Made by a program: the position numbers and the translations under genes
The notes under the pieces: generated by a model
What the model was told of the DNA's origin: nothing
The model's input: only the letters and a program-made list of their open reading frames with translations
The model's database searches: none
Part shown: positions 2,719 through 54,954 of the stretch, piece after piece
Numbering within the stretch: position 1 is the first letter of the stretch
Layout: each line of letters starts with the position of its first letter
DNA from: Deltaproteobacteria bacterium
GTDB taxonomy: Bacteria > Desulfobacterota > Desulfobaccia > Desulfobaccales > 0-14-0-80-60-11
Length of the DNA stretch: 54,954 nt
Direction: 5' to 3'
Assembly: GCA_030018495.1 (NCBI GenBank)
Contig: JASEFS010000024.1
Span: 1 to 54,954, forward strand

Positions 2719-3180
2719 ATGACGGCTGGATTTTCTCCCAAGATCATCGGTTTCTGCTGCCGGTACTGAGCTTACAGCGCGGCGGACCTGGCAGGTTCGA
2801 TGCGGCTGCAATATCCTCCGGAGATCAAGATCATCATGATGCCTTGCACCGGCCGGGTGGACATTCTGCACCTGCTGAAGGCCTTTGAGGGCGGGGCTGA
2901 TGTGGTTTTCGTGGCGGGGTGTCTGGAAGGCGAGTGCCACTATCTGAGCGGCAATATCCAGGCCCGCAAAAGGGTGGCCAAGCTGAAAAAGGATTTCGAG
3001 CAGATGGGCTTTGAGCCGGAGCGGCTGGAAATGTTCAACCTGTCGTCTTCGGAAGGTCCGAGATGGGCGGCCATTGCCAAGGAAATGGCAGAGCGGGCCT
3101 ATAAGCTGGGCCCCAGCCCGGTGAAGCAAGAGCAGCGCAAAGCTTGGCTGGCGTCCCAGCCTCAGGCCAGCGCCGGGTGA
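2719..3180 (+). CDS. mvhD: Hydrogenase Fe-S (MvhD/FlpD-type) subunit, predicted selenoprotein
   Basis: MvhD/FlpD-type proteins carry a [2Fe-2S] cluster and pass electrons from a hydrogenase or formate dehydrogenase to HdrA. The reading frame starts at ATG 2719 after AAGGAG (2708-2713) and runs 153 residues if UGA at 2767-2769 is read as selenocysteine (residue 17). The family start motif is then FCCRYUAYSAADLAG, where homologues usually have Cys, Ser or Ala at the U position. Downstream the protein is intact: LQYPPEIKIIMMPCTGRVD, then GCLEGECHYLSGN with its cysteines, then a helical C-terminus. A pure frameshift is unlikely because the family motif continues in the same frame on both sides of the UGA. 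Calling the gene from ATG 2800 would drop the N-terminal cysteines. Selenocysteine at this position is known in anaerobic Hdr-linked proteins. No sel genes are in this window. Confidence 0.85.
2767..2808 (+). promoter_or_regulatory. UGA selenocysteine codon with SECIS-like hairpin
   Basis: A hairpin can form just after the in-frame UGA: CAGCGC (2775-2780) with GC-G-GCTG (2802-2808, one bulged G), an internal loop, then ACCT (2786-2789) with AGGT (2793-2796) closing a GGC loop. The tip lies about 21 nt after the UGA, within the range seen for bacterial SECIS elements. Recognition by SelB is an inference. Confidence 0.55.
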
Positions 3181-54447: not shown

Positions 54448-54954
54448 ATGACTCAGAAAACCCAGAAAATAGGCGCGGTGATGGTGGTCGGCGGCGGCAT
54501 CGCCGGCATGCAGGCCGCCCTCGACAGCGCCAAGGCAGGCTTCAAGGTCTATCTGGTGGAGCGGGACATCTCCATCGGCGGAGTCATGGCCCAATTGGAC
54601 AAGACCTTCCCCACCAATGACTGCTCCACCTGCCTGATTTCGCCCAAACTCATTGAAGTGGCCCAGCACCCGGATATCGAAATCATTACACAGGCTGAGG
54701 TTACTGCCCTGGAAGGCGAGCCTGGCCGCTTCACGGCGACGCTGCGCCAGGAGCCCCGCTACATTGATAAAGCCAAATGCAGCGCCTGCGGGGCCTGCGC
54801 CGAAGTCTGCCCGGTCACCATGCCCTCAACCTTTGACGAGGGCCTGGGAGTCAGGCACGCGGCTTACCGCCATTTCCCCCAGGCCATCCCGGGTTCTTAT
54901 GCCATCAAGAAGTACGACCGGGCGCCGTGTGTGAGGGCCTGTCCGGCCAATTTG
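54448..54954 (+). CDS. hdrA: HdrA-type flavoprotein, N-terminal part, runs off the window
   Basis: The first 169 residues of an HdrA family protein. FAD-binding VVGGGIAGMQAA near 13-24, then a cysteine pair (C59, C62, NDCSTC) and a [4Fe-4S] motif CSACGACAEVCP (C111, 114, 117, 121). It ends with CVRAC (C161, C165), the start of a further segment seen in the long HdrA forms. The residue homologous to some selenocysteine positions is Cys here. GAGG/AAG (54433-54442) is the ribosome site. The remainder lies beyond the window. Confidence 0.92.
   Translation, partial: MTQKTQKIGAVMVVGGGIAGMQAALDSAKAGFKVYLVERDISIGGVMAQLDKTFPTNDCSTCLISPKLIEVAQHPDIEIITQAEVTALEGEPGRFTATLRQEPRYIDKAKCSACGACAEVCPVTMPSTFDEGLGVRHAAYRHFPQAIPGSYAIKKYDRAPCVRACPANL

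Follow-up and report, generated by a model that had tools for sequence, protein, structure and literature searches.

Near-certain selenocysteine decoding of an in-frame UGA in an FlpD/MvhD-type electron-transfer subunit of a deltaproteobacterium

Does the TGA that falls early in a small iron-sulfur protein gene of this deltaproteobacterium end the protein, or is it read as selenocysteine? The gene, flpD/mvhD, occupies positions 2719 to 3180 on the forward strand of the window, by which we mean the whole 54,954-nt stretch of DNA analyzed here (contig C27 of genome G000, a 3.46-Mb draft assembly in 63 contigs). Its frame opens at ATG 2719, 5 nt downstream of a forward-strand Shine-Dalgarno-like GGAG (2710–2713) read directly from the sequence, meets an in-frame TGA at codon 17 (2767–2769, forward strand), and then stays open up to the TGA at 3178–3180, which is included in the gene coordinates. 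Translated with TGA as U, the product has 153 amino acids with one selenocysteine and begins MTAGFSPKIIGFCCRYUAYSAADLAG. As the first-pass annotation had stated, the UGA lies within the cysteine motif (FCCRYUAYSAADLAG), where Sec17 replaces the second cysteine of a CxxC (here CCRYU). Its warning that standard gene calling would cut the gene to residue 28 onward was equally accurate: the longest open reading frame under translation table 11 runs from M28 (2800–3180) and encodes 126 amino acids.

The FlpD/MvhD-type identity proposed at the outset was confirmed by a match to PF02662 (E 5e-47; 159 bits against a cut-off of 22.3 bits) that extends over residues 9–131 of the product and positions 1–123 of the 123-position model. 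Orthologues share 77–88% identity with the product. The cluster-site cysteines align as C14, Sec17 (Cys in homologues), C43, C68, and C73. MvhD-type subunits of solved structure align with the product over nearly the whole length and carry Cys at the position of Sec17. One solved homologue, 9sfi_K, has X at exactly both positions that bear UGA in FlpD genes, and this X is likely selenocysteine.

The genome also encodes the machinery that had been predicted from the UGA, namely SelA (C3:66650, 604 bits), a full-length SelB (C30:6563, 373 bits), SelD (C55:29319, 386 bits), and tRNA-Sec (SelC; C49:24246, 73 bits), whose anticodon is UCA (tca in the ARAGORN output). The SelD gene has an in-frame UGA of its own, followed by a strong hairpin.

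We detected 12 FlpD domains in the genome, and four FlpD genes contain one internal UGA. It lies at codon 17 (site 1) in the window gene and in C1:42681, and at codon 68 (site 2), within GG-U-xxGxCH, in C36:55931 and C2:10451. Among 94 FlpD genes from genomes of the same GTDB family (95 rows, with one gene present twice), TGA was found at site 1 in 26 and at site 2 in 30, while none of the 94 had UGA at both. All internal TGA codons in these genes fell on the two Cys columns, with the exception of one truncated gene. In that gene (L078, G020:C256:3130-3590), the UGA is at codon 73, a third cysteine, and no hairpin accompanies it; we rejected it as a third selenocysteine position, a sequencing error or pseudogene being the likely explanation. 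With few exceptions, homologues have TGA or Cys in the codon-17 column. The first-pass annotation had listed Cys, Ser, or Ala there; the cysteine held up (65 of 68 non-UGA rows), but serine and alanine did not.

Orthologues with the same UGA, 71–88% identical to the window gene, occur in 16 other genomes of the family. A wider scan of genome contigs yielded 80 further loci, the closest of which overlap with the family survey; they came mostly from metagenome-assembled genomes (MAGs) of sulfate reducers and other deltaproteobacteria, plus Desulfospira joergensenii DSM 10085 (L174), which has the same UGA and SECIS. UGA was present at site 1 in 73 of them, at site 2 in one, and at neither site in six. 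The scan was not biased towards UGA or a SECIS element, since its patterns had Cys at position 17 and left out the hairpin. In a phylogenetic tree, the site-1 genes came together in a single large group that also contained some Cys and site-2 rows, and 11 state changes were needed compared to 62 in shuffles, on a topology with many unresolved forks. In one contig (L136 5001–6399, the contig of G014:C89), a Sec-type gene is immediately followed by a Cys-type flpD with about 70% identity, and it is possible that this second copy serves as a backup under low selenium.

A bacterial-type SECIS hairpin, recognized from its fold and conservation, follows the UGA on the forward strand (extended hairpin 2775–2808, core 2783–2799). 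The core, CGGACCUGGCAGGUUCG, consists of 7 bp and a 3-nt loop, GGC (2790–2792). The loop is formed by the 21st to 23rd bases after the UGA, which agrees with the tip noted about 21 nt downstream in the first-pass annotation. In the published bacterial SECIS model, the loop has 3–9 nt with a G among its first two bases and lies 16–37 nt from the UGA, the upper stem has 4–16 bp, and the minimum free energy is ≤ -7.5 (PMC13188914). The flpD hairpin fits this model with a 3-nt loop starting GG, a spacing of 20 nt, a 7-bp upper stem, and a folding energy of -16.4 kcal/mol for 2775–2808 (-6.9 for the 17-nt core alone). An Rfam search returned no meaningful match. Taken alone, the hairpin is unremarkable against synonymous-codon shuffles (z about -1.2); its significance comes from its conservation across relatives.

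Since minimum free energy relative to synonymous shuffles is a weak discriminator between Sec and Cys genes, we counted stems in register and exact codons instead, with the Cys genes of the same genomes as the control; the sequences counted are related, and the events are accordingly not independent. All 26 site-1 Sec genes of the family have the 7-bp stem, and in all 26 codons 22–27 read GCG GAC CTG GCA GGT TCG, while most other conserved codons vary. Across both surveys, all 74 distinct Sec sequences contain GGACCTGGCAGGT, which none of the 72 distinct Cys sequences has, and the six inner stem pairs form in 72 of the 74 but in none of the 72. The outermost core pair, made up of the bases at offsets 16 and 32 from the first base of the UGA, is G-C in 38 sequences, C-G in 29, and C-C in seven. 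Judged by these sequence patterns, the hairpin behaves as a selected SECIS element.

Could the hairpin nevertheless be a by-product of encoding Asp-Leu-Ala-Gly? Most Cys genes encode the same four residues (58 of the 72 distinct sequences), and folding energies overlap. However, all 58 lack GGACCTGGCAGGT, and GACCTGGCAGGT was found in none of them, as opposed to all 74 distinct Sec sequences. The same holds at site 2, where an in-register stem of 6 bp or more was present in 24 of 24 distinct Sec2 sequences but in only 7 of 126 others. We therefore consider a coding by-product extremely improbable. Those seven include three Cys-type genes (L161, L195, and L116; a Chloroflexi MAG, a Spirochaetes MAG, and a member of the family) in which the SECIS-like stem at site 2 is still whole or almost so; these stems are probably remnants of a lost selenocysteine.

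The UGA itself could be a true stop, with translation restarting at M28 (ATG 2800) to give a shorter FlpD without the N-terminal cysteine motif. That protein is what table 11 gives, and an ATG follows the Ser27 codon in nearly all site-1 Sec sequences. Yet CCRY before the UGA and AYSAADLAG after it show protein-level conservation, other genes have Cys in the UGA column, and the GGACCTGGCAGGT codons are invariant in UGA genes only, which makes a stop with restart very unlikely. An open frame alone would also permit decoding of the UGA as Cys or Trp, through a changed genetic code or plain read-through, but the terminal stop of flpD is itself UGA, and the genome has a complete sel machinery alongside the SECIS element; we give such decoding next to no credence. 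Finally, a draft assembly in 63 contigs might contain a sequencing error, or the gene might be a Cys-type flpD with a pseudogene mutation. Against both stand the recurrence of the UGA in the family orthologues and in most loci of the wider scan, and the invariance of codons 22–27 in the 26 site-1 genes while other codons drift. The alignment with UGA-containing homologues, suggested along with the original claim, thus excludes a sequencing error, given that the UGA is kept in many independently assembled genomes, and the probability of error or pseudogene mutation taken together is negligible. The in-frame UGA of flpD is almost certainly read as selenocysteine, with selenium insertion predicted from sequence.

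Immediately upstream of flpD, on the same strand, is the 3′ part of hdrL (21–2582), which encodes the 853 C-terminal amino acids of an HdrA-type protein, the likely FlpD partner. The contig begins inside this gene: the encoded part is 81% identical to residues 642–1493 of the 1493-aa HdrL of a relative (L130), and complete HdrL orthologues in relatives consist of HdrA fused to an N-terminal GltD-like part. The order hdrL then flpD is kept in relatives, and the flpD of the other site-1 copy (C1) is likewise preceded by an HdrL, of 1480 aa. We found no in-frame UGA in the HdrL of two relatives (L129 and L130). Downstream of flpD are a gene with a FecR domain and one whose sequence reads as CTP synthase (pyrG), so that the unit, as far as the contig extends, appears to be hdrL-flpD.

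Several further observations concern hdrL sequences and contig ends. Positions 1–55 of the window are identical to a 55-base stretch at the end of contig G000:C2 (L031 13465–13519), inside hdrA/hdrL (RCINCGVCSEC...), a pattern that an assembly break at a shared stretch would produce. Positions 1–528 of contig C63 match the N-terminal portion of the HdrL of a relative with 86% identity, and the right end of the window (54451–54954) encodes the N-terminal part (residues 14–181) of another HdrA/HdrL, cut by the contig end. The hdrL-flpD gap (2585–2702) contains an imperfect 32-nt inverted repeat of the GCTTTAAGC type, which has about 35 matches elsewhere in the genome, including one between hdrA and flpD of C2.

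Taken as a whole, the gene can be read with very high confidence as encoding a [2Fe-2S] electron-transfer subunit of the FlpD/MvhD type in which a SECIS-directed selenocysteine takes the place of the second CxxC cysteine, with HdrL as the likely partner. SelB would deliver Sec-tRNA(Sec) to the UGA, with insertion directed by the hairpin within the coding sequence. The most likely docking partner of FlpD is the product of the adjacent upstream hdrL; FlpD would shuttle electrons between the FlpD cluster and the flavin/Fe-S chain of this HdrL, in the manner of MvhD in the Hdr complexes of methanogens. By homology, FlpD would link HdrL to the electron partner of HdrL, in whichever direction the electrons may flow. 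MvhD has been described as a [2Fe-2S] connector to HdrA, and [2Fe-2S] binding is known for MvhD/ElpC (PMC12350162). Sec17 may be a ligand or near neighbor of the FlpD cluster, and its most likely place of action is the [2Fe-2S] site in electron exchange with HdrA; selenium at the CxxC would alter the potential or reactivity of this site.

The Sec-containing FlpD family is already known in related bacteria. Sec-FrhD/MvhD/VhuD, with the motif CxxU, appears in the published list of selenoprotein families (PMC13188914), and 19 bacterial Sec-FrhD genes were known in 2006 (PMC1794560); the window gene consequently adds a well-supported further member rather than a new family. Desulfobacterium autotrophicum HRM2, an anaerobic deltaproteobacterium with selABCD, has four Sec-MvhD proteins (MvhD1, 2, 3, and 5) encoded in the order hdrA/hdrL then mvhD (PMC2702500), a likeness in Sec-MvhD presence and gene order. 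Its HdrL1 and HdrL3 also contain selenocysteine, in contrast to the UGA-free HdrL of the two relatives studied here. The same family, with several Sec copies per genome and adjoining hdrA, is seen in Syntrophobacter fumaroxidans (eight copies), Syntrophus, and others (PMC1794560); in these bacteria Sec-FrhD also occurs in hdrA-frhD-frhG-frhA hydrogenase operons, whereas the window flpD has no adjoining hydrogenase genes. VhuD/MvhD of Methanococcus and relatives shares PF02662, CxxU, and the HdrA partner, but the archaeal proteins can have more than one selenocysteine and their SECIS is in the 3′ UTR (PMC13188914, PMC2933860), unlike the single selenocysteine and the SECIS inside the coding sequence found here. 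MvhD of the Methanothermococcus thermolithotrophicus Mvh-Hdr complex (PDB 5odc/5odh) aligns over nearly the whole length, carries Cys instead of Sec, and is complexed with the hydrogenase MvhAG and HdrABC.

The least familiar part of the finding is that selenocysteine can occur at one of two alternative sites, each followed by a dedicated SECIS; the literature that we covered, in part, contained no discussion of such alternation in bacteria. We propose tentatively, with slightly more doubt than confidence, that selenocysteine can replace the cluster-site cysteine at codon 17 or the one at codon 68, though in no surveyed gene both, each with a conserved SECIS of its own (CCUGGNAGG-type core) in the codons just downstream. 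On this view, selenium would tune a single [2Fe-2S] site from one side or the other, and which of the two codons is used would track the HdrA-type partner. The window flpD is a clear selenoprotein case in which standard gene calling would truncate the protein and lose its cysteine motif. Two selenocysteine positions in one small iron-sulfur protein, together with the Cys versions, provide a natural test set for the role of selenocysteine near a [2Fe-2S] cluster.
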